A DNA stretch of 64,000 nucleotides from Owenia fusiformis (Eukaryota; Annelida; Polychaeta; Sabellida; Oweniidae): positions 7,958,571 through 8,022,570 of the forward strand of contig CAIIXF020000011.1 in NCBI GenBank assembly GCA_903813345.2, given 5' to 3'. Below the pieces are notes generated by a model. It made no database searches and had not been told where the DNA came from. It worked only from the letters and a program-made list of their open reading frames with translations. This document shows positions 6,001 through 43,815 of the stretch, piece by piece. The translations under genes were made by a program, and so were the position numbers. Within the stretch, counting starts at the first letter, position 1; each line of letters opens with the position of its first letter.

Positions 6001-8393
6001 AACCCAAATGAAATCACCATTAAAAGCACATTTGATATCCCTAGCATGATGCTATTGTTCTGAGCCCTTTGCTTAGTCTCCCAGTTAATACATTTATGGA
6101 TTTATCCTATTTTCATTTAAATTAATGATTTGTAACATAACTGCTAAATTGTTATCTTTGAAAATGAAATTGTCAGAAAAACTCCAAAACTAAAACATTC
6201 TTTTCATGATAAACTCAACAAAACTTGTATGTGAAATATTTATCATTACTGAAAATCTATGGGCCATGTCATAGGCTATAACAAACTCGACTCTAAAATA
6301 AATGAATACATATGAGTCTCAATGTTCCAATGAAATCAGATGATTTAATATAATATAGTTTTTAAAACCCAACCATGTAAAAAGGATAAAAATAAATAAG
6401 ATAGATCTTAAATAATTTTACTGGGAGGATGTTTATATTGAAAATGACTCCTCCACTAATGATAATGGTATTGGAATATTGATAAAAGTTATTAAATGTT
6501 GAAATATGTTATGTTCCCAAGACATCTTCATGAATTGGAATAAAATTAAAAATCATGGTTCTAACAATTTTAATTTGCATTGAAAACTAGTGTTTCGATT
6601 TTCATTGTTTCCTTTGTAACTTCGAACAGTCGTAGATCTCAAACTGAAATTATGTTTTTAAAGATGAATGCTTAGTTAGACATGGCAAAGTGGGATAGTT
6701 AGGGGGGATTGAAGTGATTAAAGAATTACTCATTTAATGAAATAAACAATATTTTCAAAACATTATAATGTAGGGGTGCCTCTGTAGATAGAAAGGAAAA
6801 TGTATAGTTTAATTAATTATAAAGTTATATAATTATATAATACAAGTATTAGATAGAAGAGGCTTGTAAGTATTGCCTATTTGTGTAGAGTGGAATTGAT
6901 TACTAGAACTCAGATATAGACTAGGCATGGTGTATTTCATATTCCCTGAATATTTTTTTGTTTTTGTTTTTTTAATTGTTTATTAACTGTCAGCTATTCT
7001 AGCAGCATCTTTGAGCTTGAGATAATTCATCAGTATTGGAGTGTGCCATATCTTTTGTTTTGTAATTGTTAATTAACTGTCAGCTATTCTAGCAGCATCT
7101 TTGAGCTTGAGATAATTCATCAGTATTGGAGTGTGCCATATTTTTGTTTTGTTGTTTTTGATGCATGAAACGAGTGTTAAGTTAACCCATAAGTTAATCT
7201 ATGTATATTTAAAAAGCACTTGTATATTTGACTTTTAAATAAAATGCACACACCAACAGCAAATACTATTATAGTGGCCTGGACTAAATATATTGAATAA
7301 TTTTATTCATTATACAACCTTGTTTTAATCATACAAATATCTACAAGAAAATGTTCAAAGTATCAGGCATGTAGCCAGGGGGGGGGGTTCGCAGGGTTCG
7401 GGCAAACGTGATTTTAGCCATATTTGGGCCAAAATTGTCAAATGTGAACCTCCCCTGGAAATCTTTGAAAACTGAACCCCCCTTGACAAATCCTGGCTAC
7501 GGGCCTGAGTATCGTATTGTTTACGCTGTGTAACATTACAACTAGGAAATCACTAATGATCGAACTTATAATTTTTTGCAAGGCAAGGTTAACATTAGCA
7601 TTATTAAAACACTGTCAATCTATTTTAGATTCAAAGAAGTCGACAACTCAGATTGAGGAGGAGAAGCGAGTGTTGGAAGAGCTAATGGAAGTGGTGGAAC
7701 AGAGGGATCAGTTAGTGGCCATGTTGGATGAGGACAGACTCAGGTATACTCCCTTGGATATATCAGATTTTGAAGTAAAATATTAAGTGAAGGAATAATG
7801 TAACTACAAATACATATATAGTATTATGTAGTAATATTCAGATATCTCAAATTGAGGTTGTGTCATTGCAAAACATGCTTTGTTGCTTACTCTTAAACTG
7901 CTGAAAGAAACTTTGTCTTATTAAAAACTTTAAAAAGTAGCATTAAAATATATGGTATGTACATTTTGATGAATAGTGTGAGATTTCCCCAAAATATATA
8001 TAGAATATACATGTAGATTCAATCAACATTTTGTGAATATTGCCCAGGACGTACTAAATGCCTGTATTGCTATCATTGCTGTGGCAAATAATGTTTACAA
8101 GATTGTAAGTCATGTTGTTTCACAATGTTTACAAGATTGTAAGTCATGTTGTTTCACAATGTTTACAAGATTGTAAGTCATGTTGTTTCACAATGTTTAC
8201 AAGATTGTAAGTCATGTTGTTTCACAATGTTTACAAGATTGTAAGTCATGTTGTTTCACAATGTTTACAAGATTGTAAGTCATGTTGTTTCAGGGAGCAA
8301 CAGGAAGACAATGATCTGGAGGCTGTCATGTTGAAGAAAGGATTCCAACTCTCACCAGTAGTCTACTCCAACACAAAGCCAAGGCTTATATAA
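1..8393 (+). CDS. MICAL: MICAL-family protein, C-terminal part (linker and bMERB domain), 5' partial
   Basis: Exons 1-1642, 1803-1885, 2203-2419, 2736-2832, 3073-3146, 4346-4402, 7629-7743 and 8294-8393 join in one frame, open from base 1, with GT-AG sites at every junction (794 visible residues). Residues 1-547 are a Ser/Lys/Glu-rich disordered linker from one large exon. From about residue 576 a charged coiled coil with KRLRMAQELQRQLEE, VKQRELEERG, YESELM, ELELEDRQSRL and VVEQRDQLVAMLDEDRLRE matches the bMERB (DUF3585) domain of MICAL and MICAL-like proteins, which binds Rab8-family GTPases. The monooxygenase, CH and LIM domains would lie upstream of the window, so MICAL versus MICAL-like is not proven. 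Wording of the domain and the neighbouring SMPD2 favour MICAL. The stop lies inside the first unit of a minisatellite. Confidence 0.85.
4346..4402 (+). other. 57-nt phase-1/phase-1 cassette-type exon inside the MICAL bMERB domain
   Basis: A short open segment between a TTTTAG acceptor and an AAG|GTACAC donor encodes about 19 residues (SSIMSLDELIDKINSEE and flanks). Both neighbouring junctions are phase 1, and including or skipping it both give an Asp codon and keep the frame. It falls between the second and third predicted helices of bMERB, where family members differ in length. It may be alternatively spliced. Confidence 0.6.
5039..6047 (-). CDS. Secreted single-IGFBP-domain protein, nested in a MICAL intron
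   Basis: Exon 1 is 6047-5833 and exon 2 is 5195-5039, joined at phase 2 across GTAAGT and TTTTCAG sites; the product is 123 residues. Residues 1-20 form a hydrophobic signal peptide ending AQA. The mature part carries the IGFBP N-terminal fingerprint: CPPC, a GCGCC motif, CALKQGETC, then a PCMAGLQC segment and a last Cys. That makes twelve cysteines, the full set of an IGFBP N-domain. There is no thyroglobulin, Kazal or Ig domain, so it belongs with the one-domain IGFBP-like proteins (single insulin-binding-domain proteins) known from invertebrates. Ligand binding to insulin-like peptides is inferred from the family only. The gene lies wholly within the MICAL intron 4403-7628 on the opposite strand, so it must have its own promoter. 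Confidence 0.85.
6974..7152. repeat. 90-bp direct tandem duplication in a MICAL intron
   Basis: Two adjacent copies starting with AATTGTT at 6974 and 7064 are almost identical through AACTGTCAGCTATTC and GGAGTGTGCCATAT. The low divergence suggests a recent duplication. No coding content. Confidence 0.85.
7364..7507. mobile_element. 144-bp MITE with GTAGCCAGG-type terminal inverted repeats
   Basis: The ends read CAGGCATGTAGCCAGG and, inverted, CAGGCCCGTAGCCAGG. The element is flanked by a 5-bp target duplication AGTAT at 7359-7363 and 7508-7512. It contains G- and C-rich runs near the ends. Relatives sit at 13092-13222 and around 55590-56270. Confidence 0.8.
8090..8293 (+). repeat. Six exact-length 34-bp tandem copies ending at the last MICAL 3' splice site
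   Basis: The array is 204 bp, exactly six units of 34 bp, each containing GTTTACAAGATTGTAAGTCA and ending TTGTTTCAC. Only the last copy ends TTGTTTCAG, which is the acceptor of the final MICAL exon at 8294. Every unit also holds a GTAAGT donor-like word. Confidence 0.95.
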
Positions 8394-24006: not shown

Positions 24007-24330
24007 TTCAAACATGAAAATCTGCTATTTTATTCCTCAATTATAAATTCAACATCCACCATGTTGGGATATCCCAATGACGTCATAACTTTTTCAATGA
24101 TTTCCCTTTGAATAGCTTGATTTATTCATGTAGACGATATCTATGTTACGCTTTATCGCCGAATTGATTTAAATATAATTTATTCTCATGATATTTATCA
24201 AAATATTGTACATAATAATGACTTAAACAACATGGAAATAAGAAGTGAAATTCTCATTTGACCTAATTTGACGCCATATTGAAAACAAAACCAGGTGCTC
24301 GAAAAGCCGACAAATGATTTGTTTACTTTT
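24007..24330. promoter_or_regulatory. Bidirectional promoter between SMPD2 and the 18-exon gene
   Basis: The two start codons are 324 bp apart on opposite strands. The interval holds a perfect palindromic CRE, TGACGTCA (24078-24085), immediately preceded by a 14-bp palindrome TTGGGATATCCCAA (24064-24077). No TATA box at a convincing distance is evident. Confidence 0.6.
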
Positions 24331-24334
24331 ATGA
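24314..24334 (+). promoter_or_regulatory. Six-codon uORF overlapping the start codon of the 18-exon gene
   Basis: ATG at 24314 opens MICLLL and its TGA (24332-24334) overlaps the main ATG (24331-24333) as ATGA. If transcription starts upstream, this could reduce or couple initiation. Confidence 0.4.
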
Positions 24335-27300
24335 GTTGTGCTTATCGACCAGTGTTTCCATCGAGCAAGCCAGAAGCTGAACCATCTGTTCCAGGGATGG
24401 AGTATAATCAACCAGGGAGAAGATTTGGAATCCCTCCCAGGAGTACAGGAAGAGGTAAGACATTTGACTGTCTGCAACTGCAAGCAAGTGAATGCAACAC
24501 ATTTTCTCAAGTTTCTGGAGGAAGCCAGTGAGCAAAATGATCCACAAGGTTGATCAAGTTTATAAATATTTTCTTATATCTTAGTACCTTGGTCAGATTC
24601 CTCCCATTGGTCTCAAGGCTCAATGAATTTATTAGGATCAGACATGAAATCTTATCGTACCTACCGACCACTTGTGGTCGTACGCCCGTATTATTAGTAA
24701 GCCTGTCTTTCTACAATGTCGGAGAATGAACTACGCATTGCACTATTAAATGACCTACCTCGATACATTCCAGCGTATTTTAGAATTCTTTTTATGTTGT
24801 TAGATCGCCAATTGTATGGGTTTATCGGCAGAACGAAGAGATTTTAGTTTTTACATCGGAAATATATCAGCAATTTTCAAAATGTCGGAAGGGGAATTCC
24901 CCAGGGATTTCCCTTATGACTGGTGCATGCCGGGAACTGAATGGAGGAATTTGACGGTTGAAATAAGTTAAATATTACACGCAAATATTGCTATCAAAAA
25001 CGAAAATATCTTCGTTCTGCCGATAAACCCATACAATTGGTGATCTAACAACATAAAAAGAATTCTAAAATACTCTGGAATGTATCAAGGTAGGTCATTT
25101 AATAGTGCAATGCGTAGTTCATTCTCCGACATTGTAGAAAGACAGGCTTACAAATAATACGGGCGTACGACCACAATCTAAAGGGGTCGTAGGATGCGAT
25201 AAATGAAATCTTCTTAAAATTTGAGGCGAACCATGACGAGTGCGCGCAACGAAATGAGGGCCAGAATTCTGAGCAATTTCAGAGCACATTATCCCACACT
25301 TAAAATCATTTTTCAAGACATTGGTTAAGAGAGAAGGAGGAGCTCGACCCGAGTGCTCCCCCTGAATCTACCATTGGGTACCAAAATAAATAAATAATAT
25401 CCCTGGCCATCACTTATTATTGACCTGTGCTTGTTAATGGATACTTACCTAATAAAACATTCCATTTCTCTGCTGTTCAGTGCTATTGCTATATGCAATA
25501 TTGTTCTGTTTTAAACTATGGATTTATTTTTAAATTTTTTAGTCCAATAGATCTACCACAAAAATGTTATTTTGCAAATACAATTTAAAAAGAAGGCTTA
25601 TATGTTGATTTCTCTGAACATATTTCTTTCAAATGATTTCTGGAAAAATTAGATGGATGGCTGTCAATTTATTTCAAATGAATGCTCCTCTGATGTGCTG
25701 TGAGCATGGCGAGCGCATTGCCAGTTAAGGTAATACGAAAAAAGTTCACAGACTACCAAATTAAACCAAATTTTGAATGAAAATACATGTACTCGCTTAC
25801 TAGAATTACAAAAAAAGGTTACTTTAGTGGAGCAACGATTGACTCGTTGACTCGAATACTACTCGCCAAACCCTGTAAATACGATTCATCGATTGGTAAA
25901 TTCTGACTCGAATTGAAAAATTGATGAAGAAAATGTGATCTACCCACCTTTCAACCACAATTTACGTAAAAAAACACATCCAATGTACAACATTTCTGTA
26001 AAATGTTTAGCAATGATGCCTTCCTTAATATATAGCATTGTAGTATGATACCTTAGTTTGGAATAATAAATCAAATACAATTAAAGCTTTCTCGTGTTTG
26101 TTTTTATTTATTACATCCGGTTGCGCATGTGCAATGCAATGTTTAAGTAGGTCAAACCAATTAGCGTAAATTGCTAAATTTTTTACTTTTCAATGCAAAA
26201 CAATAACAGATAAAGTGTATTGAGTTATTCTATTTGAATAATTTGATAAGTATGTTGGAGTTATTCAAGGTCGGTTGAGCCAAGAACACTTGAAAACATT
26301 GCTACCGGAAGTGAAAGTTTGTAACTTTCCGAAGAAAGTTTTTCGCAAATAAATCGAGTGTTCAAGAGCCTCTACTCGAGTAGGATAATTCACACGAGTC
26401 CCACTACTAGTTTACATGAATTGATTATTTTAATGTTCATTGTTAAAGAATGTACATACATAAAACATGTTTAATATGTCTCTGGTTATGGCTTTTTTCT
26501 TAATGGATACACGACTAAGGTGTGAGATCTATTGAAAGGGCACAACGTCAACAACATGCAAAAGTTAATGTTTTTTGCATGATATCAAAACTTAAAATAC
26601 ATAGAGACAACAGGCCTATAGAGAACTGAAGTCTGCACAGTATTTGACAAAGAAAGCAGGTGGTGTTTTCCATAGATGGCTAGGAAAGCGATGGCGTGAA
26701 AGAAGGTTGCACATCTGGGGGTGCAAGGGCATGCTCCCCGTAGAAAATTTTTGTCATTGAAGACGTTATTTGGTGCAATCTGAGCATTTTTAAGGACCAT
26801 AAATAGTTGTTTCTGATGTAAAATAGCATGAAGTTTCACCGAGGAATCTTGTTTTAGGCAGTTTCAGAGTTCGCACCCAATGGTGCCAATGATTCTGGAG
26901 TCAATTTATCAATATAACACGTCATATCCCATATGACACGTACTGTTGTCAGCTTTATCTCCCAATCACTTTAACCACTAAGCAGGGGTTTCATTAGCAG
27001 TAGGCAACAGGCGAATTATGTGGAACCCCTGTATTGACATCAGGGTCTGGTGCTTGCAAAGCATTAGATGAAGAAATTTAACAGTTCAAATAAGTTAGAT
27101 AACAGGCATATTGTTATGGTCTCCGTTTTTTTGTGACGGTGGTTAGTGGTTGGCAGGCCATTTTGGAATGAATTATATATTTTAAGCCTCATCGAGGATA
27201 AGTTTATTTATTTCCGTAGATCTACATTATTTTATAGGATCATTTAAACTTTACCTTATCTTTTATCTAATGAATTAGTTTGGGAAGTATTGGTGCAGTT

Positions 27301-30300
27301 GAGCTGGCCCCTCAAAACTAGAGTTAAACTTATTCAACTACATGTAATGAATATTAAGAAATCATCATGGTTATGTCAGGAGACAAATGTTTAAAACAAG
27401 CCACTTTTTGGTCTATTGGTGCCGTGCATGTTAATCATATCATTGCTTTATTTCTGTATTTATAACAGTAATTCAAGAGTTCTGATTTTAATATTTTATA
27501 TTGCAGATGATGATCGCCTGCCATTTCCAAGAAGTAAGTTCCCAAGTACAATCATTCTTATGGATTATAAAAATGAATTTCCTAAAATAAAACACAATGA
27601 TATGGCATTTGATTCCGACCTTATCCTTAATAGTTTTTGTTTAATTAGAGGACCTAGGGACTTGTATGGGCATTCTCAGACAAACCCTTGGTACCAGGTG
27701 AAAATCTGGGGTATTTTTAGACCCTTTACAATATATATCACCGTATCAATAAAATGTTATGTCTAATTTGAAATTTCAATAAAGAAATATATAAAACAAA
27801 AATTATTTAAGATTGTCAGACAATGCCCCATGTCCCACTTTACCCCTATGTACTCTAAACTAAACATTTCTCAGATGTTGATATGCTAAATATTATTAAG
27901 ACCAATCATAATTTTTAATGTCCCATGGATCTACTCATATTACATGGGGAAGAGGAATGAAATATATAATTCCATATATTACACAACTCAAACTTGCATA
28001 TACTATTATGTTCTTTTAATTTCTTAAAGGAGGACCATCATTTGATCCCTATCAGAAAGGTAATCTTGTTTGCTTTTAAACCATCTAAATATAGATTGCT
28101 TTTAATATGTGCATTTCGTTGAAATGCTGTGAATATGTATGGCACTAAGGCTGGCAAAGGCCTAAGAGCATTACAAAACACAAGAAACACCTAAGGGGCA
28201 GAATAGCCTTGCCTAAGTCGGTGTCTTTTTTATTAAAAAATTTTACTGTTACTCCACTGCCTTGTTCCAATCACAGAGACACATGCTTTCCCAACTATAT
28301 GTTATTGTCGGTTCAGTTTTGACTAATAGCATGCAGCCTTATAAGTTTGTAAAATGCTTTGCAGTAAGCCAATCAGTGACTGCGTTAGCTCATTATTATG
28401 CTCAATCGAAGACTTTTCAAAAACCAATTAGATCTTGTACAATTGCAAATATCCAAATATTTTATCAAATTGATATCAGTCATAGTATAGTGGATGCAGG
28501 AGCATCAATGAGATGCATGGAATTGCAAGGAATTAAAAAAGATTGCCAAAGATAACTGAAAATGTTTTTTGACCAGTACCAGGGAAATTTGTTTTCTGTT
28601 GCCAAGTAACTGGTTCATACGGGATGGTTGACACATAAATTATCATAAAACATCAGAGATAACCTGGATGGTACCAAGACGAGTAAAAGAAAAAAATATC
28701 GACTTTGGCAAGGCTAAGAGTATAACAAATAAAACAAATCCAAACATCCATTAAAAATGTGGTAATTCACATGCATTTTGTTTCATGTAATTTTGTAATA
28801 TACTTGTGTTTGCAGTGTTGTTTTGGGAATGTGGTTATGGTTTAATTTACTGCAAGATTCAACTACAGTTTATTAGCATACTGATATCTTGACTCTTTTT
28901 CACAATGCCATTATTAAGAAAAAGTAGTGCCATAAATTCTTCTCACAAGGCATTCCTATTTATGATTGACTTCAAGAAACAGAACCCTGACAAATGCATA
29001 CAGTTATACAAAGAAACGTGGTAAATATACTTAAATGTATTTGAATGTCTATTATAAGTGAAAAGTGAATGATAGTAAGTATGAATGTTGCAGAGAAGAG
29101 AGGTGGTGAAGATCCTAACCAGGGATGGCTAAAGATGATTGAGAAATTCAACAGAGGTGAGGATCCAGAAGACACTACTGAGGAGGATATAGAGGAACAG
29201 ATCAGGGTCTTCAAGGGTAGTAGAGGTATGTGCAGCTGCTGATGGGTAAATTTCAGTTTCATTATTTTAATTTCATTGTTATTGACAAACTGGCTGGATG
29301 GCTAGCTAAAACCAAAAGATAATACTTCGTAATTGTTCTTGTTGGAAGAATTTTTTTTGTATCAAGATTTTCATTCTTTAACATGCCATAATTTTAAAAA
29401 TCCAAACCTTGTTTTAAGGATATCACAGACAGATTATTTTTGCATTCATACAGATATTATCCAGCTTATTGTTCTGAAGCATATGCAATTGTAATCACTG
29501 AAAGATAAATACACGGGGGTAAAGCAGACCCGATGATACAATGAGCTTGCTCGGTGGTATCATGACTGTGTTATGGGTCTTGATGTATAAGTGAGCTCGG
29601 CGGTAGGTTCAAACAACGCGGATCCTCATAGCATGTGCTCATGGTATCATCGTGGCTTAACACCCGTGTAAAGAGGTGAAAAAAATAAAATGTCAGAAAT
29701 AAGTTTTTACAGAAAAGAATGTAAGATACAATACAATACAATACAATACAATACAATACAATACAATACAATACAATACAATTCAAAACAATATAATACA
29801 ATACAATTCAGTACAATACATTAATACAAATACCAATACAAGATATGAGAAAATAGAAAAGGGATAAACATTTAATTTTTTTATTACATGTAATTGTAGA
29901 TTTTAAGTCCAAATTGAATGAGCACTCACTCCAGAGTGGCTTTGGTGTGGCGGCATATGAAACAAGACCAGCAGGTCGAATGCAGAATGATGGATTCGTT
30001 AGCTGTTGCATTGTTGGGGGAAGAAATTACCAGTGTAAAAGTAAGATGCCATCCCTGTATTCTTTAGTCTGCACAAATGGCTGTCACTGGAAGTATCATT
30101 GCCTTACTATTTCATACTGTAACTTGTTTCGTACAGAAGTCTATGAAATGCTCTGTAACTGTAGTTATTAAAAAGTCATGTTGATGATTTGGGGCATATT
30201 TAACAATTTAGTGCTTTCGTGGATTATGTCACATATTTTAATTATTACATCCTAAGTGACTTATTATTTAGTTTTGTATTGCTGTACATTTCAGTGAGTT

Positions 30301-33300
30301 TCCGTGCAAAGAAAGATGCAGAGCAAGCTGCTGCTAGGATGGCTTTAGTAGACTGGGGAATCATAAGTCAAGGTGAGACTGGGGGATCATAAGTCAAGGT
30401 GAGACTGGGGGATCATAAGTCAAGGTGAGACTGGGGGATCATAAGTCAAGGTGAGACTGGGGGATCATAAGTCAAAGTGGGATTGGTGGAGCATAAGGTT
30501 TAAAAATGAGGATTATAAGTAAAGGTCTATCTGGGGGATAACATCCAAAAGTGAGACTGGGGGAGGATAAGTAAAGATGAGACTAGGGGATCATGAATAA
30601 AGATGAGACTAGAGGATAATGAATAAAGATGAGACTAGGGGATCATAAATAAAAGTGATTTATTGATTTAGTTTATAAATTTCAACGGGAGTGTAAATGG
30701 ATTAATGTGGTGTAGCTTCTTGGTGTCACACCATTTTTGTGATTGTGTTTCCAGATGCCAAGTTACCTAATGCAGATAGGATCATAAACAAAAATGTTGA
30801 TCTCTCTATAAGTCCTGCAGAAACCTTTGACCCCAACTACCCCAAAGGCAGAGGCAGAAACTTTGATAATAGATACAATAATGATAACTCTGGCAATGAT
30901 GATCCATGTAAAACCTCCTTTAGTTCACAAGAAGTAAGTTAAACTTTGCATGAGTATAAATGTCAATAGGTTATTCAGGATTTTAAGCGAAGCTTTCAAA
31001 AATGTTTGACATAAAAGAAAATAATTTCAATTTCTCCTCTGACCCCCCACATCTCTTTCCCTGAAAATTATTATGTTGTTGTTTTCAGAATGTGGATGAT
31101 GATTTTGAAAAGAAAGACTTAATAAGGAGTGAAATAGAGAGGTTTAGAAGCAAACACAAGGGTGAAGTGGTGAGTTTGTTTGTTTGTTTGCTTATTTGTT
31201 CATTTTCTTGTAAGGTAGCCAATGTCAGACTATGTTATGTCACAATATAGATAATATGATGCCATCTGCCATCTGTGTATCCCATGGACACAATTTTGAT
31301 AAGACTAGGTATATCTTGAGGAATTTAAGTTGCAAAATTATTAACTCATCTACAGTTAAAAATCTATAAGTGCTTATCCATGAATTAATATGAACAAAAA
31401 GTGGAGAAAAGAAATGGTCATTTCAAGTCATTTGTTTTTATTAATTTGTATAGGTGTCAAATGCTAGACTTTTGGATAAACCAAGTTTTGATCATGAAGA
31501 TTGGCCCCCTCGTGGAGGAGAGCAGAGATACCCTAGAAATGAACATGGATACCCTCCACACTTTCCCAGAGGCCCCCCACGAGGTGGATACAATGGCCCA
31601 GGTCCAAGGCCTTGTGGTGGTGTGCCTCCATTAATGAATCCTCAGTTTAATCCGCCACCACGACACCGCCACCCTATCCCTAGAATGATGTTAAACTACC
31701 CTGAGGATCCTCAGTGGGAGAATGAGGCTTGGGAGGAAGATATGGGGCCAAGGAGACATAGGGATAGATCGCCAATTGCCAGGGCACCTCCGCCACCACC
31801 TAACTCTCTACAGTCAATACTTGAGTAAGTCTTCTAAGTCATTACTGTCAATACTTGAGTAAGTCTAACTCAATACAGTCAATACTTGAGTAAGTCTATG
31901 TCATTTCAGCCAATACTTGAGTAATTCTAACTCACTAGTCAATACTTGAGGAACTTTATGTCGTTACGTTCAGTACTTGAGTAATTCTAACTCACTATAG
32001 TCAACACTTGAGTAATTATATGTCATTTCAGTCAATACTTGAGTAAGTCTATGTTGTTACAGTCAATACTTGAGTAAGTCTCTGTTTTTACAGTCAATAC
32101 TTGAGTAATTCTAACTCACTACAGTCAATACTTGAGTAATTCTATGTCATTTCAGCCAATACTTGAGTAAGTCCATGTTGTTAACAGTCAATACTTGAGT
32201 AATTCTAACTCACTAATCAATACTTGAGGAACTTTATGTCGTTACACTCAGTACTTGAATAATAGTACTTGAAAGTCTATTTCATTACAGTCAATACTTG
32301 AGTAAATCTATGTCATAACAGTCAATACTTGAGTAAGTCTATGTCATAACAGTCAATACTTGAGTAAGGCTATGTCATTAAAGCCAATACTTGAGTAAGT
32401 TTTAGTCAGTAGTCAATACTTGAATAAGTCAAAACCTGTTAGTCTCACAAACTGCAATCAATTCTTGAATAAGTCTAACTGGCTACAATCAATTCTTGAG
32501 TAAGTCTAACTGGCTACAATCAATTCTTGAGGAAGTCTAACTGGCTACAATCAATTCTTGAGTAAGTCTAACTGGCTACAATCAATTCTCGAGTAAGTCT
32601 AACTGGCTACAATCAATTCTTGAGTAAGTCTTACTGGCTACAATCAATTCTTGAGGAAGTCTAACTGGCTACAATCAATTCTTGAGTAAGTCTAACTGGC
32701 TACAATCAATTCTTGAGTAAGTCTAACTGGCTGCAATCAATTCTTTAGTAAGTCTAACTGGCTACAATCAATTCTTGAGTAAGTCTAACTGGCTACAATC
32801 AATTCTTGAGTAAGTCTAACTGGCTACAATCAATTCTTGAGTAAGTCTAACTGGCTACAATCAATTCTTGAGGAAGTCTAACTGGCTACAATCAATTCTT
32901 GAGTAAGTCTAACTGGCTACAATCAATTCTTGAGGAAGTCTAACTGGCTGCAATCAATTCTTGAGGAAGTCTAACTGGCTACAATCAATTCTTGAGGAAG
33001 TCTAACTGGCTACAATCAATTCTTGAGTAAGTCTAACTGGCTGCAATCAATTCTTTAGTAAGTCTAACTGGCTACAATCAATTCTTGAGTAAGTCTAACT
33101 GGCTACAATCAATTCTTGAGTAAGTCTAACTGGCTACAATCAATTCTTGAGGAAGTCTAACTGGCTACAATCAATTCTTGAGTAAGTCTAACTGGCTACA
33201 ATCAATTCTTGAGGAAGTCTAACTGGCTGCAATCAATTCTTGAGGAAGTCTAACTGGCTACAATCAATTCTTGAGGAAGTCTAACTGGCTACAATCAATT

Positions 33301-36300
33301 CTTGAGTTAATCTGACTTACAAGAAATCAATGCTCAAGTATTTAACTCTCATAATTATGACACACCTATTGTGGATGTAGCACATGTAATTTGAACATAG
33401 CACACATTGTGCTGATTCAGCACACATATCCTGGATTTAGCACACATACTGTTGATGTAGCCCACATAATGAAAGCTACTCTTGTTGTTTTAGTCACACA
33501 AATGCAAAGATCAAAGTAGCGGCAGTTGGCCATGGTTACATGTGGTCAATCTTTGGGTCCATGAAAGCAAACAATCCTAAAACACCACGTGATTTTGGCA
33601 TTAAAGAACTGGCAGTACAAATGCTTTGTCCTGAATGGGGCTATACAATCAAAGATATTCTAAGAAGCCGTCCTTCATTGGTCTATATACAGGTAATACG
33701 CATTGTTATTTAATAAATATAGAATTTCCCTTACAACCCTGACCACGTTTTGCTGCACCAAACAAAACAGGGTATGATGATTCCTCAAAACATTGAAATA
33801 TTTGTACATTGTATTGTTGAATAGTTTGTTAGAAAGTCTAATATTTTGTATCTTTGTACATCATTTATGCATTATGGGAAGTAATATGACCTTATAAAGA
33901 AACAGCATTTCTCCTCCAAATTGGAGAGCTCTAACTAGTCTTGCTTCAAGTCTATACCCCCCCCCCTCCTTTACGTGCTTCACCACCAATGAGTGTGAGA
34001 ATATTTTAACTTTTTTCAATTTTCAGGTTGAAGATAAGGACATAATGGGTCAGCGTCCTGAACATGGACCACATCCAATCATCAGCCTGGCAGAAAATCT
34101 CATAGAAATGTCCCGTGGCCATATCAAGAAGGTATGTTTTACATGGAAACTTGACACATTGAGAATTTGCTCAATATGATAGCCATTTTAGAAAGTAATG
34201 GTTGAATATAGCAGTTCCCATCAAAGTGACTCCCAGACAATTATCTGCTTCTTGACAAGATGTTTGGTGGAAATTACTTTCCCCTGGCACTGCCAATGAC
34301 TAGTTATTTTACTTTTACATCTTTAATTTATTAGTAATTCTTCAGTGATTTGTTGTTGAAGGAATTATTAACTGGTAGTTTGCCACCAGGCTAATAAATG
34401 AATAATGAAGAACAATAGTTGAGATATATAACGCATTACATGTCTTCAATTCTTTATAAACATTTTACATAATTTCTTGAAGGTGATCATAGGGAAGGCG
34501 TTTGCAAGATTCCACACTCTCTCCTCAGAGTCTTCAGCCGTGGCCTATTTCAATGACAGATGTGCCAAGCTGAATCAAGAGCTGAAGTCAAGCATTGCCA
34601 AGCGTGATTTCCTGCTATGGTGGAATCACAAAGATGTTGGAATGTCAGACAGGAAGAATGTAAAGGATGATGGGTTTAATTTAAGCGACCTTGGTGTCTT
34701 CAGACTATGGAAGTCAATTAGAGCCTCACTGATGAGGTTCAAAGAGGAGTTCTCTTTAATGGGGTATGTAGCTATCTTTGATGGGGTGTTTAGCTCTCAT
34801 TGTAGCTTTCTTTAATGGTGTGTGTAGCTCTCATTGTATCTTTCTTTAATGGTGTGTGTAGCTCTCATTGTAGCTTTCTTTAATTGGGTGTGTAGCTCTC
34901 ATTGTAGCTTTCTTTAATTGGGTGTGTAGCTCTCATTGTAGCTTTCTTTAATGGGATGTGTAGCTCTCATTGTAGCTTTCTTTAATGGGGTATGTAGCTA
35001 TCTTTGATGGGGTGTTTAGCTCTCATTGTAGCTTTCTTTAATGGTGTGTGTAGCTCTCATTGTAGCTTCTTTAATGGTGTGTGTAGCTCTCATTGTAGCT
35101 TTCTTTAATTACTCAGATGCGAGTAGGTAGTTACCAGTTTCGCCACCAGGTGGCTGATTCGGGGGAATTAACGTGGCAGGGTATTACACAATTCCCTTAA
35201 ACTTGAATATGCATGAGTTTTAATGGTTCACTTTTCATATTACCTTTATGTATCTGATAGTTATATAAATTAAAATATGTCCAGTAAAAGAAAATGTTAT
35301 CTGCCCAACACAAGAAAAGATATTTCACTTTTTGTGGTTTTACAACATGGGCTCTATGGGGAATCTCCCCGACCCAGAAGTCAGATTTTCAAAGAAAATT
35401 AAATTTTCAAAGTTGATAAACTCTTTCCAAAACCACATTTCTAAATGTAATTTTACATGTAGATTCCAAATATGACATCAGTTTGACTGAATTGTGAATT
35501 CTTAATGACGTAAATCAAGATTATTTCTACTCGCATCTGGGATATTGGGTGTGTAGCTCTCATTGTAGCTTTCTTTAATGGGGTGTGTAGCTCTCATTGT
35601 AGCTTTCTTTAATGGGGTATGTAGTGATGGGATATGTAGCTCTATTTATTGAGGTATGTAACTCTTCAATGGGGTATGTAGCTCTCTTTATTGAGGTATG
35701 TAGCTCTCTTTATAGTGGCATGTAGCTCCCTTAGCTATGATCTGTGGCTTTTACCATATGAGTAATGTAGCTCTGGTCAATGGGGTATGTACTTGATAAC
35801 ATTGCAATGAATTGTTCCCATACTGGAAGTTAGTAAATATTTTGTTGGGGACCAGTAACTTAACTAATGGCAAATGTTCAGCTAATTTCATATATTTAAA
35901 ACATATGTGTGATTGAGTTGGTTTTTCAGACATTACAATTTTCAATATTTTCTTAGTCGATATTCTGACTCATTCCTGAACTTATCCTTTACAAACTTCT
36001 TCAATATTTTCAGAGGCAAAACAGCTGTGATTGACTATGGACACACATCTGCTGGTCAAGCTGAGTTGTCACCTACAGCTGTGTTGCAGGAAGCCATATC
36101 AAATGCTACAATGATTAAACAGCACATGATGCATCAAAATGTCATGCAGAAAACTGCACAGGTACAGTGGCCTTTAAAGTATCTTGTGACATGATTTTCT
36201 TATTGATATTTTTATTGTCAGGGCTCATCAAAAGTGGAAATTATTGCACAGGTACAAATTATCTAGTTCCAGGGTTCTCACTAGGCTTTTAGACTCAGGA

Positions 36301-39300
36301 GATTCTCCGGAGTCTAATGTATTAAAACCCTTTTGCTCCAGAGTCTAATAGCTTTTCCGAAGTCTAAAGTGTTTTTCCGGAGTTTAATTTTACATTTTTG
36401 TCACATTATTTGCAGTAAAACTCTTCAAAAAATACATAAAACTGGATACAAACAAGGAATAGGAATTCAGAAACCTTTTAGAAATTAATATTGGGATTGA
36501 AATAGCAAAATAATCTTAAGAAGTATGTTGAAAAGTATACTAATAGGATATCTCTGATCTCACATGGGGGTGAAGTAGTCGCGAAACCGCTAAAAAAAGT
36601 AGTCAAAATACCGCTAAAAATCTGGGGTCTAAAAATTTCCTGGTGAGAACCCTGAGTTCACATTAATCAGAGGCATAAAGTGGATAACAAGCTCAAAAAA
36701 AACTGTCCAATGTATCAAGTTAATTCATATTTCAAAACTGTTCATGAAACCTTTATGAACTTCATATTCCTTGAATGGTTCTAGGTAAAACATGAAGAGT
36801 ACATGAGGCACTGGGAAAGGAATCGCTACTCTGATCAACATCAGTCACGTCGTAGATCCCATGATGACAAACCCAAGGATCGTCACACATTAGTTGTAGA
36901 GGAGGAAGACTATGAAGAAGCTGATGCTGATATTGTTGAGGCTAATAAACGTCTCATTGAGGTATGTTCATGATTTGTCATCTAAATTAAGCAACAGTCT
37001 TATCTTATGTAACTATCATGGTATCAGTGACATGAGGCTGGTGATGAGATGGAACAACCCAAGGCACAGTCTAATAAGTTGCATACTTTTATGATGTATT
37101 CTCTATGCTTCTGAATGTTATATTTAGAAGTGTACAGTGATATAACTTTACTTCTGGTCATCTTCATTTGCTGTTTACTAAATATTAATATAAACTAATT
37201 TAAAAGCTGCAAAATTTGAGTAGTTTCAAATTTACAAAATATACTTGTTGCAACAAATGTTAAAAAAATGAAAATAAATTGCAGTGAAATTTCAAAATCA
37301 CAAAATGCAATGTATAATACCATCCATAAATAGGTCTGTATTTTTAATATTGGAAACACGGACTGGAGTCATCGTTAACAGGAATTCAAAAAATGAAGTA
37401 AACCTTTTTATTTCCGGATTCTCGCCTAAATTAGCTCATCTTGGTGACTGGAACTTGCACAGCTGTATTAACCATAGTCTTATAGTATCACATCCCTAAA
37501 TTGTAAAGTAGAAATGCATTTTTAACCTGATTTCACTGTTTTTTTGTCGACTGGTAAGATACCGCCATAAAGCGACATAAAATGTAATATTGGAATGACT
37601 AATTTATATACATACATATTTAAAAGCTAATCGTCATCCTTGAAAAATGTTGCTGAACTTTGTTGCCGATTTCCATCATGTATTGCAAATTTTACTTTTT
37701 TGTTTTTTTTTTCATTTCAATTCTCTGACCCGATTTTCTATATAAGGGTGGATGTCCAACTTAATATAAGTTGGCAGATGGATGACTCTTGACCTTGAGT
37801 GACCATGTGACAAATGTTATCTAGACATTGATTGGTTGAAATTCAATGGTTCAATTGCCGATAATGTTGTCCTGTCAACAATGGCAATTTGTACGTAACC
37901 AATTGATTTATTGAAATAAATGTGAAGTGTGTAAAAAATGGTTGAAATTTAAATTGGTCAGGAAATTTGATACTCCCGCTCGAGAACAAGAATTGGTCAT
38001 GTGATCACCCAAGGTCAAGGTCAGGTCAAGAGTTATCTATCTGCCAAAACTCTGGCAGTATCTTACCAGTCAACCAGAAACAGTGTAATTAGTCTTAAAA
38101 ATACATTTATACTTGAAAATGGACACTTTTAAGCTGCAGTTAATACAGCTGTGCAAGTTTCAGTCACCAAGGTGAGCTAATTAGGCGAAAATCGGGAAAC
38201 AAAAAATGTAACTTCATTGAATGCTTCTTGTTTCCAATCCTCAGTTTAAATTATGTTTGAGTTTCGAAAGAATGTCAGACCTGTCCATGATTGGAAAAGG
38301 CAAATTGTAAGTACATTTCCAAATTACAGGACAAGGCAAATATGTCAATGAAGCAGTTTACTGATGTTTATGGTAGAGGACGTGCTGAAAACATTAAGTA
38401 TAGACATAAACGCTATCAGCAAGAGCAGATCCTGCGCCACAGATATAAACTCTACATCTCTGACAAGGCGACACTAGGACTCATGGAAATGGAAGAAAAG
38501 TAAGAAACTGACTAGCTCTCAGTTTTTGTTTGTCAAAAGGTGTACGGCATTTCTTTGACTCAAAATTGTTGAAAATCCAAATGCTCATGAATAATCTGAA
38601 TGTGCCAGTTAGTAGCTGATAGTTTCACCACCAGGTGGCTAACCTGAGTCGGATTACATGGCTGGTATACATTAATTTTCATCTAACCTTTTTGAGTATG
38701 ACAGTTATACCATTTAAAATGTATTATTTGTTCAATACAAGCAAATGTAGGAAAGCTTTATATATTGTTTTTAATATGTTCATTGATAATGTAGATATGG
38801 TGGCAGCAAAAGCTGCAATGATCTGGAGCAGGAATACAAGGAGATGAAGGATGCGGAGGAGCTTGAAGAGCGCTACAAGACCTACCTTAAAGACAAAGAC
38901 ACCCTGACAGCTCTTGAGTGGGAGGAGAAATATGGCGGGACTGGCGGTGAAGAAATTGAGGAGAAATTCAAAACATTCAAAAGACGTCAGTACCTTATTG
39001 ACGCTCAACATCGCTGTACTTATGATAAGCAAAATTTGTCAAAATCTGACTTCAACAGCAAATATTACAAGAAGTACCTGGATGTGTTAAAAGAGGCCTT
39101 TAATCGCCAAAAAGAGCAGAAGACTCTTTCAAAAGAAGACCAGGAACTAGTGGCTAAATATAAGGCGTGGGAATATGACAAGAAATCAATGTCAATGGTT
39201 GAATACGAGAAGAAATACCCAGATGATGTGACGGATGAACTAGAAACAGAGTATAAGGTGTTCAAAGAGAAAAATCAGGGTTCACTCGAATCTTCTGAGG

Positions 39301-42300
39301 TGGATGAATTCTTCTATATTCTACATAAGTTCCTTTATGAAAAAGCATTCAAATCAAAAACCAAAGTGAAATTGAACTATACAAGAGAGTTTCTAGATCT
39401 CCTTTTCTCCGTCTGGGACAAACACAAAAATGGGAAATCAGAACAGGTGGATTACGAAGAGGTAATATTTGAAGAAGGTTACACGAGATACATGATGGAT
39501 AAAGAACAATTGACCCCCAGTGTGTTCATGATGAAATATACACCTAAGATCATTACTGATTTTGAGACAAGACGCGAAGAGCTTGCACAAAGGAAGAAAG
39601 GGGACATGACTGCCAGTACAGATAATCAGCTGCTAGAGGCGGAGTATCAGACATACATGGCAGACAAACAACAACTCAGTATGATGGCCTTTACTGAGAA
39701 ATACAACCCAGTTTATATAAAAGGTGAAACATCTTGTATTTATATGTAAGATCATGCTTGTAAGGTTTCACAATTACTACTTTATAAATACAAATATCAA
39801 TAATCATTTTCAGCATTACAGACATTTACATCTGCATTCTTATGATAAAATAACTTGTATGAAAAAATATGTATAATGTATGTCTAATTGAATGTTGTTT
39901 TACAAATGAACACAAAACGTTGTTTTTTTCTAATGTGTAATCAACCTTCCAGTAAGTCTAGTAAAATTGTGAAATATAAATTTGTCTTCAGATCTGGAGG
40001 ATCGTTACGCTGCACTTAAAGGGACTAAGCCTGATGTAACAACTGACGCAATGCAAGCTCATCTGATGCAGCAACAACAATTGATGATGTCACAATACGG
40101 GATGATGGGTCAAGGAATGATGCCTGGAATGATGAACCAGTTCTATCAACCTGGTTCTATGTTCCCAGCTGCTGAGACTGCAACTGGTGAGGAAGATAAG
40201 GCTGATGACATCACAGAGGTTGAAATGGAGCTGAGTGATAATGAAGGTGACTCAAGTGAGGCAAAAGCAGAGGAGCCCATTGTGAAGCCTCACCCAATGG
40301 GCCAGTACCCACCCCTCAAGCCAGCAGAGCCTGGACCCACAGGGCTCGAAGAGAAACAAGAGCCAGTGACCCAATCTTTCAGTGATTTCTTAAAGGTAAA
40401 TTATGACTCATTGGAAGTTGCATTTGAAATATAACCCAACTTTTGAAAAATAATTTCCCAAACTCCATGCTGAAATGTAAGTTAGCTTGAGCCATACTAT
40501 GTTATTGTTGGGCTGTTTTACAATTTGGAGAGATGAGCAGGCATACATTGCTCTGTGATGTCATCAGAATCAATACAATATTCCATCGTCTCAATTTCTG
40601 AATATTCTCCATTGCACCTGATTACAAGCAAGCCCTGTACAACACTTTTGGAACATTATATAGCAGATAAGGTGAGAGTTCATATGAGAATAGTGCATCC
40701 TTTGAACAGTTTATTGGATGGACTATTCTTGCTTTTGCTACATTAAAGTATTGCACTTCTTGTGATTTGCACCTTGTGGTCTTATTTTTCAGAAACAAAT
40801 GTAAAACAGAACCCCAGCGGCAAATAGTGACATCTATAAACCAAAGATTGGAAATACCATATATGGGCATATTGGTAACTCCAATCTTTCTGCGGATCCG
40901 GAAGGACATTAGAGTTGAAAATAAACATTGAGTAGATAGACCATGAGTCTACATTATTCCATATACTTCGGAATATATTAGCGCCAGTGAACTTTATAAA
41001 TACCTGTATTTCATATTAAAATACTTGTATTTAAATGAATGATATTTCAAAGAGACAAATTTGAACATATCTGAGGAAAAGTAGTTTTGTCATTATAACA
41101 CGTATACAATATAAAATAGGGTAAGTGATTATGAAAACAAATAGTGACATCATCTTCAGGAAAAGACTTTTGAAATGAGAAATATTTGTATTTCTGAAAT
41201 ACCTGTATTTATCATGTGAATAATTTCATGAAAATGTGTAATAATCGAAGTAAGGGACTTGGAACTTTTAAACAACAAACAACTTCCATATCTTGAAAAA
41301 CTGTTCCATGAGCATCTAAAGAGGTAAGATCACATGACTTGGTTGATTTTGTTGAATGAAACACCTCAGCCGCATATTCATACTTCCCAATTGTCCAGTA
41401 CTTAGTCTCTGTCAACTATAAAATTGGAGAAGGATCGTTGAACTGAAAACAGTTTTTGGAGATATGGATGTTAGAGATATCTTTAATTTACATTGAGTTA
41501 CTATATAGGAGACAATTTGATGCATCTTTATGTACATGTACATGCCAGATTATGTTTTAATAATCTTTTGGATGTTTCGTTGAAAAATGTGCAAGTGATT
41601 TTTGTGTATTTTCTCTATATTGGTGACAGACACACAGGAAAAATAAAACTTCTCAAAGTATGTAAGTAACATCAATTTAGCGTTTGTCCTATTCAATGAA
41701 ATTATTTCACCATGAAAAACATTTAAAGTGTGTCTGAAGTTTAGTGATGTTGACCAAAGTAGGATGGAACAAATGTAATAAAAATGTGATTAAATTGTTT
41801 ATGGGAAGGATTGATTTGAAATTTCTAGATATGCTTATTGGTCAAAGATCTTGAAATTTTGGTCATGTTGGGTGAATTTTGAGTTGGTTTTTATTAGATT
41901 TGCCATCCCGATATTTAGTCTGTAAAGTCTTGTCCTTTGCAAAACTGTGACTAACTTAAATTAAACTTAATGTTTATATAATGCAATGCATTACGTGATG
42001 TACTTTAAGGGGGCACTCATGTGTCTTGATAAATTTAATTGTCCATCCAGATGCCTATCACATGGTGCTATTTGTGTTATAAATACAACTGAACATATTT
42101 TTCGCCCACCCTGTAAGGTAACAAACTGGGGTTGTTTCAAGATAGGCCCTTAGTTTGAATTCTGTGAATGTTACAAGCCTACTCTCAAAGGTAAGTAAAA
42201 ATCTACTCTTGCTCATATTACAAACGGTTGTTGTCTGAAAATAGATCTTCTAATTTAGCGGAAACAGGTAGAAAGAATTGTCTGATTTTGATACCTGTAT

Positions 42301-43815
42301 CAATTTCAAACAATCTGTCCCTAAACCTCTCTGATCATGTTATTCTGGATAATTATGGAATTATTAAACATGACTGTTATGTATGTGACTAAAAATTAAT
42401 TCGAGGACTTTAGCAATGCGTGTATATCAGTCTCTGCCACAGCCTTTCAAATCGATCGGTGATATTTTCTTTATATGTTTTCCTGGAATCTGCTCTATAC
42501 TGTTAACTGTAGCTTATTACAATTTTTTTATACTTTTATTCTTAGAATGGCTAACAGTGCCCTGCAAAGCAGACTCTCGTCTTACTTTGCCTGATTACTG
42601 GTGAAGATGAACTGTAATGGTGACACTGGTAATCTGTGGATGCTATTAATCAGTACCTGTTGATCTACCTCATCTATGGTTGCTATGGAAACAAAGCATC
42701 ACCTGGGGTCGCTATGGAAACAAAGGATCATCAGTTGTTGAAATATCTCAATGTAGCTATGGTGAGTGATATGTAGAGATAAAATAAAAAGGAGGAGATT
42801 CACAAGAGCTCATAGTGTTTTTATTATAAAATTTTAATCTGCCATTTTGTTTTCCTTAGCCACCTATTAATCAATTGACCATCAATTGACCATCAGGGAG
42901 GATGCTATGGCGTTACATATGTCAGTCAAAGACCAAAAAAGAGGTTATCTTGACATGGTTCATTTTGATTTGTTTGATGAAATCATTTTTTTTACAAAAT
43001 GACATTCGCAGAATTTGTCAGAATTCTTTGTGAAGATTTAGGTTTTCATTTTAAATAAATAATACATGTGCTGCATAAAAATCATCTTACATGTATATGA
43101 AGTTTTTGTTTTACATGTGGTTTTAGTCATTGTCATCTTAAATCTCTTGTTTTATATGTGATTCCACATATTCTGAGAGATTGATGAATGTCTTGCAGGT
43201 TTGACTGTCTCAAGCCACATGCAACAAAAATGATCTGCTATGGAAACAAGTCATTCAGAGCTGCTAGAAACAATGTACTTGTTTTGGAAAACACTACAAC
43301 TGGACTCAATGGTTAGGTGAGGTATATGTTCTAAGTAGAACTTTAATCTAACAATTTATGAAAATATATTTATTTAGTCCTTGTATGGCTAGTCTCGAAT
43401 ATAAATAGATATTTTGTACTTGGCTGTTTCAAGAGGCTTTCACAAAATCTTCACAAAGTTTCTAATATCCAGAAAATGTTAACGCTTAATTTTTTATTCC
43501 AGTCAGAGTATTCCCTGGAATTGAGGTTTTGGTTGGGTCCGAATACATAGAGGTTATTTAATGCATGTAATGGGAGGGATGGAATATGAATTTTATTATG
43601 AGGGAAAATATGATATTACATGGAAAATATCATATTGACTGAGGGCGACAGCCCGAGTGTAAATATAAATAAAAATCTTATTTCTAGTATTGTTGTGATT
43701 ACAGATGAAGAGCAGATTTGAGCTAGGAAGTCTACTTGACAATCCTGCCATGCAGCTACTCGGTGAAATGACCACTGACCACTGGACAATAGGGCTTAGT
43801 TCATCAGTGAAATGA
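24331..43815 (+). CDS. Unrecognised 1228-residue protein: dsRBD, SGNH-like region, seven DK repeats
   Basis: Eighteen exons: 24331-24454, 27507-27533, 28030-28059, 29094-29225, 29900-30040, 30295-30372, 30755-30933, 31089-31169, 31454-31824, 33494-33692, 34027-34131, 34483-34763, 36014-36161, 36785-36961, 38330-38499, 38795-39723, 39992-40395, 43705-43815. Every junction is GT-AG and phase-consistent (3687 nt). In order: a short N-terminus with PGRRFGIPPRSTGRG; a dsRNA-binding domain (105-177); an acidic/Arg-rich part; a Pro/Arg/Gly-rich stretch ending in PPPPP (about 265-385); an SGNH-like region (388-582); an RS/acidic patch (633-691); seven DK repeats (692 to about 1070); a Met/Gln-rich then acidic, Pro-rich tail. 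This suggests a nuclear RNA-associated protein, by inference only. The last exon is the least certain: it fits by phase and a TTACAG acceptor. Spliced-looking noncoding segments near 42100-43310 leave room for other 3' ends. Confidence 0.85.
24652..25202. mobile_element. 551-bp foldback MITE with arms of about 190 bp
   Basis: Arms share TTATCG at the tips and long near-identical blocks such as ACAATGTCGGAGAATGAACT and its complement. An 8-bp duplication ATGAAATC flanks it (24644-24651, 25203-25210), as for hAT- or P-type insertion. It lies in intron 1 of the 18-exon gene and encodes nothing. Confidence 0.8.
25203..27506. other. Rest of intron 1 of the 18-exon gene
   Basis: AT-rich intron. 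A CAAGGGCATGCTCCCCGTAG-type repeat lies near 26720 and a piece of the TGTCACCACC family near 27115-27170 (GTTATGGTCTCCG, GTGACGGTGGTTAG). No exon is required by phase and none seen. Confidence 0.4.
29511..29669. mobile_element. 159-bp MITE with ACACGGG ends
   Basis: Starts ACACGGGGGTAAAGCAGACC and ends CGTGGCTTAACACCCGTGT, with GATGATAC/GTATCATC further in. Located in the intron before the dsRBD exons. No target duplication seen. Confidence 0.6.
29727..29819. repeat. (ATACA)n microsatellite
   Basis: About 18 units of a 5-bp ATACA repeat, slightly degenerate at the right end. Intronic. Confidence 0.9.
29900..30372 (+). other. dsRNA-binding domain exons of the 18-exon gene
   Basis: Exons 29900-30040 and 30295-30372 encode residues 105-177. 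Helix 1 is KSKLNEHSLQSG, strand 1 has VAAYETRPAG, strands 2-3 have FVSCCIVGGRNYQC, and helix 2 has the diagnostic AKKDAEQAAARMAL. The KKxAxxxAA pattern that contacts dsRNA phosphates is intact, so RNA binding is plausible. Confidence 0.85.
30353..30655 (+). repeat. 26-bp minisatellite copying the 5' splice site of the dsRBD exon
   Basis: Starts inside the exon end (GACTGGGGAATCATAAGTCA, then AG|GTGAGA) and continues as four near-perfect copies of GGGGGATCATAAGTCAAGGT plus GAGACT, then degenerate copies. Each good unit repeats the CAAG|GTGAGA junction. Confidence 0.9.
31808..33310 (+). repeat. 1.5-kb 31-bp minisatellite copying a 5' splice site about 48 times
   Basis: The first unit is the end of exon 31454-31824 (CTACAGTCAATACTTGA) plus its GTAAGTCT donor. 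Units then repeat; early ones look like CAGTCAATACTTGAGTAAGT and later ones like CAATCAATTCTTGAGTAAGT with CTAACTGGCTA between. Many keep GA|GTAAGT; a subset has GAGGAAGT, which destroys the donor. Early units also end a pyrimidine-poor ACAG or TCAG before an 11-nt pseudo-exon. Confidence 0.95.
33494..34763 (+). other. Degenerate SGNH-hydrolase-like region of the 18-exon gene
   Basis: Exons 33494-33692, 34027-34131 and 34483-34763 encode residues 388-582. The order of elements follows SGNH/GDSL folds: a first strand with KVAAVGHGYMWSIFGSM where GDS is expected, VYIQVEDKDI where the GxND block is expected, KKVIIGKAFARF, then FNDRCAKLNQELK and DGFNLSDLGVFRLWKSI where the DxxH block is expected. 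The catalytic Ser and His are replaced by Gly402 or neighbours and Asn555. It would therefore be a catalytically dead domain. Fold assignment is by eye and uncertain. Confidence 0.5.
34752..35790 (+). repeat. 34-bp minisatellite copying the donor of exon 12
   Basis: The exon end TCTCTTTAATGG with donor GTATGTAGCT is the first unit. Copies with CTTTCTTTAATGGGGTATGT and AGCTCTCATTGTAG run to about 35108 and again from 35541. The array is interrupted by an insertion at 35114-35539. Confidence 0.9.
35114..35539. mobile_element. MITE with 13-bp perfect TIRs inserted in a minisatellite
   Basis: Ends are CAGATGCGAGTAG and CTACTCGCATCTG. Flanking ATT triplets may be a 3-bp target duplication. Internal GCCACCAGGTGGCTGA recurs at about 38625 in the next part of the gene, where only a fragment is present. 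Confidence 0.75.
36270..36654. mobile_element. 385-bp MITE with CAGGGTTCTCAC ends
   Basis: Ends CAGGGTTCTCACTAGG and CCTGGTGAGAACCCTG are near-perfect inverses. A 5-bp duplication AGTTC flanks it (36265-36269, 36655-36659). Intronic. Confidence 0.85.
36785..40030 (+). other. Seven-copy DK repeat region of the 18-exon gene
   Basis: Units have a core DKxx[LM][ST]xxx[FWYM]xx[KV]Y, usually preceded by YxxY or similar and followed after about 15 residues by a helix like DLExxYxxxK. The DK pairs are at residues 692, 736, 781, 825, 876, 983 and 1038. Spacing is 44-55 residues except for a 107-residue gap holding an inserted helical segment. Exon borders at 38330 and 39992 fall at equivalent places relative to the units. 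Repeat family not recognised; predicted alpha-helical. Confidence 0.8.
37380..38220. mobile_element. Foldback repeat with diverged arms of about 180 bp
   Basis: Left arm TTGGTGACTGGAACTTGCAC and CAGCTGTATTAACC is matched in inverse at 38115-38190 (GTGCAAGTTTCAGTCACCAA). Arms differ at many positions, so it is an old copy. Intronic. Confidence 0.65.
40396..43704. other. Last intron of the 18-exon gene, or alternative noncoding 3' exons
   Basis: No phase-compatible coding exon seen. Possible spliced noncoding pieces: donors CAAAG|GTAAGT at about 42192 and CTATG|GTGAGT at about 42760, and an acceptor TCTTGCAG at about 43198. Repeated GCTATGGAAACAAAG words lie at 42680-42725. Confidence 0.4.

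Follow-up and report, generated by a model that had tools for sequence, protein, structure and literature searches.

In a 64,000-nucleotide stretch of Owenia fusiformis DNA (the window, C11:7958571-8022570), the plus-strand gene at 24331-40804, of 18 exons and 1195 aa, appears to join three modules: a divergent double-stranded RNA-binding domain (dsRBD), an SGNH-type domain probably captured from a retrotransposon and an array of repeats marked by DK dipeptides. On balance, a host gene of this composition, viewed as encoding an RNP adaptor, is the favoured reading, and the three modules are placed on one predicted transcript.

The gene model was rebuilt by hand, and own-genome searches were made over 498 Mb. 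All 17 junctions are GT/AG, and the 1195 codons form a single open frame without a stop. For 17 of 17 scored exons (1-17; the 12-nt exon 18 was left out), nine of them absent from the training set, codon usage gives a positive score in the modelled frame and lower scores in the other two. Scores as high as an exon's were reached by a share of at most 0.0097 of 3000 null stretches, that maximum belonging to the 27-nt exon 3. As far as sequence tells, the gene is real. The 18-exon, phase-consistent frame of the original prediction was thus reproduced with identical residue borders (105-177, 388-582 and 692 onward), and its order of dsRBD, degenerate SGNH region and helical repeats in one frame is borne out by the model and the coding scores. 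Upstream of the ATG the frame is open back to a stop at 24280, without a further ATG, and there may be an extra 5′ exon before 24331. At the other end exon 17 has two splice choices, either to 40793 for a 12-nt exon 18 (40793-40804, K-Q-M-stop) or to 43705 for an alternative last exon of 36 codons and a stop (43705-43815), which is also coding by score (share of null 0.003). The end at 43815 that had been predicted fits the second choice, but the first ends at 40804.

The phases of the modules form a pattern, noticed after the fact, that may be read as gene assembly from modules: the dsRBD cassette (exons 5-6) is phase 1-1, the SGNH cassette (exons 10-12) phase 2-2 and exons 15-17 phase 0-0. 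Between them lie a P/R-rich linker encoded by exons 7-9 (30755-31824, plus strand, residues 178-387) and a second linker encoded by exons 13-14 (36014-36961, plus strand, residues 583-691). The predicted links between dsRBD and SGNH parts (introns 6-9) and between SGNH and DK parts (introns 12-14) depend on phase and coding score, and it is here that a misreading of at least two same-strand neighbours as one gene, for instance one with the dsRBD (and perhaps the SGNH part) and another with the DK repeats, has to be weighed. Homology spans introns 5 (dsRBD), 10 and 11 (SGNH) and 15 and 16 (repeats) only, with none over 6-9 or 12-14, a pattern counted in favour of two genes. A genome search with the dsRBD family also found no place on C11, the contig of the DK paralogs, a weak point in that the window's own split dsRBD was missed too. 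Against the split, exons 7-9, 13 and 14, all held out of training, score as coding in the phase needed to connect the modules and have canonical splice sites, and the two-gene reading is judged unlikely.

The main result concerns the SGNH-like domain, encoded on the plus strand by exons 10-12 (33494-33692, 34027-34131 and 34483-34763; overall 33494-34763, residues 388-582). Separate searches of the three regions, proposed in the original prediction, gave a Pfam dsrm match for the first, no match for the SGNH part in Pfam or PDB sequence searches, and no significant match for the DK array in Pfam, PDB or Foldseek. The SGNH part was reached by way of its relatives. A protein search of the animal's own genome with the domain returned 27 places, four of them being exons of the gene itself and 23 lying elsewhere (E 6.5e-6 to 0.58, frames of 150-298 aa; the four weakest, at E 0.058-0.58, are insignificant alone). 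Several of the 23 are near-copies, and three have stops inside the match. Ten of the 23, with frames of 199-246 aa stop to stop, were fetched and made into a profile, which scores 73.6 bits against the window protein; the highest score among 2000 shuffles of the domain is 7.3. Lipase_GDSL or Lipase_GDSL_2 is above the Pfam cut-off in four of seven ORFs scanned, and an eight-ORF profile finds a solved PAF-AH-like structure at E 1.1e-7, together with GDSL proteins, in the PDB. The claim of a degenerate SGNH region holds, but only through these relatives, and the kinship with SGNH ORFs of tyrosine-recombinase retrotransposons in the same genome, to which the comparison points, had been missed.

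Twelve columns are invariant in the ten profile ORFs. Six of them are retained in the window domain (G400, Q454, N513, N520, D552, G560), five differ there (S to G402, L to I453, G to E456, N to K458, H to N555), and opposite the remaining one the domain is gapped; the block-II Gly falls in an alignment gap. Because of the exchanges at 402, 458 and 555, the nucleophile Ser, the block-III Asn and the catalytic His are replaced with several structural positions kept, as the earlier claim of lost active-site residues had it, and the SGNH part is very probably a pseudo-enzyme, to judge by these residues, its hydrolase activity lost. When exon 12 was modelled together with eight retroelement rows, the best predicted model had a pLDDT of 84.9 (the other four, 54.5-67.7). 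Its top PDB match in Foldseek is the zebrafish ZfL2-1 retrotransposon esterase, followed by PAF-AH-like and GDSL proteins; the best match, at E 0.15 (probability 0.97), stays short of E 0.001, as do all the others.

The relatives were set against other SGNH proteins of the genome. Pfam Lipase_GDSL_2 matches 95 places, of which 20 were fetched; six more were already among the loci of the ten ORFs. The ten-ORF profile gives 121-198 bits for four of the 20 and at most 49.7 for the other 16. Length does not separate high from low scorers, since the low scorers L021 and L035 are short frames too, of about 220 aa. A tree was built from 28 rows: the window domain, 12 high-scoring ORFs and 15 other SGNH ORFs (left out were L028 and a second L018 frame, at less than 7 bits, and L005 and L012 as near-copies). 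The window domain groups with the 12 high scorers against the 15 others with support of 98/97, the groups being labelled by profile score (above or below 100 bits), so that labels and tree are not independent. It also falls within the part of that group without L009, at a lower support of 92/87. Its branch is long (2.06), its best identity is 24%, and the tree does not fix its exact sister.

Flanks were followed at four of the 12 grouped tree rows. At three of these four loci an RVT_1 match above cut-off and a Phage_integrase match lie downstream of the SGNH ORF, the latter above cut-off in two and at 22.2 against 27.1 bits in the third; at the fourth, L015, the followed flank has no frame of 140 aa or more. 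Around L005, L007 and L009-L012 the sequence covered was that of their 4.5-kb loci, and around L032-L036 it was 1.3 kb. The frame between SGNH ORF and RT is taken as gag, without Pfam support, and an NCBIfam scan of four retroelement frames gave no match. By RT and tyrosine recombinase, the source loci would be of Ngaro/DIRS-type make-up, either Ngaro or another DIRS-type element. At the pairs L004/L013, L008/L014 and L006/L016 the SGNH ORF precedes the gag-like frame and the RT, an order that differs from the one given for Xenopus in PMC9210276.

Taken with the profile and the tree, these loci point to a retroelement origin of the domain, which is very probable. The reverse derivation, in which the host inherited an SGNH esterase domain and retrotransposons acquired theirs from such a host gene, draws on the direction of transfer being unobserved and on the unfixed sister of the window row. 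Mobile elements can take host SGNH genes: a title in reference lists names a platyfish SGNH gene mobilised by a Helitron. The window row is nonetheless nested within the retroelement-type clade, and the active site kept in ten of ten profile ORFs, near-copies included, is lost in the window gene. Ngaro-like elements of amphibians, moreover, have an SGNH ORF on record, after the recombinase (PMC9210276). The host-esterase derivation is quite improbable. Scarcely more credible, and if anything less so, is a CR1/L2-type LINE ORF1 esterase as donor instead of a tyrosine-recombinase element. It would accord with the ZfL2-1 LINE esterase being the best Foldseek match of exon 12 and with LINE esterases having been found in several clades (PMC3905857). 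Against it, the other fetched SGNH ORFs, some of which may be LINE ORF1s, are those that score at most 49.7 bits and stand on the opposite side of the tree.

For a domain of tyrosine-recombinase element descent, the closest known counterpart is the Ngaro-like SGNH ORF. The two are related over residues ~390-580, and the element ORFs, of about 200-250 aa, stand beside RT and tyrosine recombinase, whereas the window domain sits in a multi-exon host gene, has its Ser, Asn and His replaced and has no RT or recombinase attached. ZfL2-1 ORF1 (PDB 4c1b) is alike in the SGNH half-domain resemblance of exon 12 and in being a retrotransposon protein, but is an active esterase of another element class, according to PMC3905857.

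The dsRBD is encoded by exons 5-6 (29900-30040 and 30295-30372; overall 29900-30372, plus strand, residues 105-177). Pfam dsrm (PF00035) matches at 107-169 with E 4.5e-6 and 27.6 bits against a cut-off of 23, and the best PDB sequence match has E 0.002. The RNA-contact motifs of such domains are a GPxH loop and a second-helix KKxAK. In both the sequence and the PDB alignments KKDAE stands in place of KKxAK, and no GPxH loop is seen. The domain is divergent by sequence, and the contacts called intact in the original prediction are only partly so; the domain itself stands, above the Pfam cut-off. RNA binding is put no higher than likely, as the second helix retains only part of its lysines and has no GPxH loop beside it.

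The third module (38330-40395, plus strand) comprises the DK array of exons 15-16 and the start of exon 17 (residues 692-1070), followed in the rest of exon 17 by an acidic M/E/Q/P-rich tail. Seven DK dipeptides are in register by eye (692, 736, 781, 825, 876, 983 and 1038), six units being in the alignment; the seven DK repeats announced earlier are accordingly there, but one unit has EK instead of DK, and the DK at 956 is out of register. The array is modelled as about eight units of 45 residues, probably helical. A helical array, as had been suggested, is predicted, but with low confidence: an AlphaFold model of exon 16, aligned with two rows from paralogs, was of poor quality (pLDDT 59.2, pTM 0.26). 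Its three Foldseek matches (best E 9.3) were discarded as meaningless, and no fold is claimed beyond probable helix. Overlooked in the original prediction were apparent relatives of the array at two loci of the same contig, one of them weak. The clear one, at C11:8.639 Mb (L001:3247-8778, minus strand), is a frame of 1844 aa with E 2.5e-8, which has one match among PDB sequences, at E 0.1. The weaker one, at C11:8.677 Mb (L002:2124-3305, plus strand), has E 0.29 from the window protein and 0.0034 to the L001 relative. Own-genome searches can miss weak matches. A Suf match in one L002 frame (18.3 against 24.7 bits) and a Pfam EF-hand match were both below cut-off and set aside. [Both relatives have RS-rich and N/Q/G-repeat flanks and lie less than 0.7 Mb from the window gene. 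Within the window, plus-strand frames at 60238-63111 are rich in Q/N/G and EDYEEG repeats and perhaps belong to a prion-like gene; the N/Q/G recalls L002.]

Three introns of the gene carry minisatellites, on the plus strand, in which the unit repeats the gene's own 5′ splice site. A 26-bp minisatellite at 30350-30658 repeats the exon 6 donor, a 31-bp one at 31800-33307 repeats the exon 9 donor and occupies most of intron 9, and 22- and 34-bp ones at 34753-35732 (blocks 34753-35109 and 35547-35732) repeat the exon 12 donor. Counted at up to 3 mismatches in 20 bases, introns 6, 9 and 12 hold 5, 26 and 14 copies of the splice site, and the other 14 introns of the gene none. Across the window a 14-base donor pattern is found 44 times, where 0.58 would be expected, always in intron 9 and its donor. 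A donor-motif test on 27 tandem arrays from window and loci is weak: three (35633, 30350 and 8090) beat 95% of shuffles, against an expectation of about one. Intron 9's three arrays fall short (0.09-0.14), and copy count is the better evidence. Of the minisatellite introns, two border the SGNH cassette and one ends the dsRBD cassette, a position that, with so few introns, may be chance. Such repeats are already known as the 'mirage' minisatellites of amphioxus, where the tandem units likewise include an exon-intron boundary (PMC3087553); the window gene differs in that three of its introns show such repeats, each at the 5′ splice site. [Elsewhere in the window, six 34-bp copies at 8090-8292 match at 100%, contain GTAAGT and are possibly another donor-seeded array. 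Inverted repeats, fold-back or MITE-like, lie in intron 1 (24672-24852 and 24996-25176; 181 nt, 97%) and intron 14 (37429-37489 and 38122-38182; 61 nt, 84%).] Minisatellites and fold-back repeats in introns would suit a gene that is decaying or unexpressed, but 1195 codons without a stop, canonical splice sites and in-frame codon bias in 17 of 17 scored exons speak against decay, which is highly improbable.

For the favoured host gene of three modules the following course may be proposed. The SGNH domain would have been captured long ago from an Ngaro/DIRS-type (tyrosine-recombinase) element and is now cut by two introns. In the protein the dsRBD would dock on structured RNA, the dead SGNH fold would offer a surface for binding or self-association, and the repeat array with its low-complexity flanks would act as spacer or scaffold. 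That the protein so works as an RNP adaptor is conceivable from its domains, at somewhat less than an even chance. The ZfL2-1 esterase bound phospholipids and not oligo-(A) RNA (PMC3905857), which speaks against RNA binding by the SGNH fold.

The OSK domain of Oskar, of the insect germ line, is a non-catalytic SGNH relative of proposed bacterial origin (PMC7250577). Oskar resembles the window protein in combining a non-catalytic SGNH-type domain, for which a foreign source has been proposed, with a further domain in the same chain. Unlike it, Oskar has LOTUS and neither dsRBD nor DK repeats, and the donor differs. Pfam finds no LOTUS or OSK in the whole window protein at E 1 or less and none in the SGNH part at E 10 or less. 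The parallel is one of kind, not of membership. A likeness between ZfL2-1 ORF1p and Oskar in RNP assembly has already been drawn in a review (PMC4754038).

The SGNH cassette, at 585 nt, is 195 codons long, close to the retroelement frame lengths of 199-246 aa. A more daring and rather unlikely proposal is that a retrotransposon's SGNH ORF was taken up whole, as a symmetric cassette, and became a non-catalytic module for RNP assembly that parallels Oskar independently, with OSK itself perhaps derived from an element and not from bacteria. Two Pfam OSK matches among the seven retroelement ORFs (E 0.0022 and 0.039), both below cut-off, were counted for an element origin of OSK, and the absence of any chain named Oskar among the 25 PDB matches listed for the retroelement profile was counted against it.

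The known domesticated retroelement genes derive mainly from gag, integrase, transposase and recombinase sequences. No report of a gene like the one described here was found in the open-licence PMC literature, among the matches listed. A retroelement SGNH ORF that has been disarmed and joined to a dsRBD would add a new kind of donor part for domestication. It would also be a further reuse of the esterase fold in an RNA-related protein, and the fold's use to RNPs would become testable outside insects.
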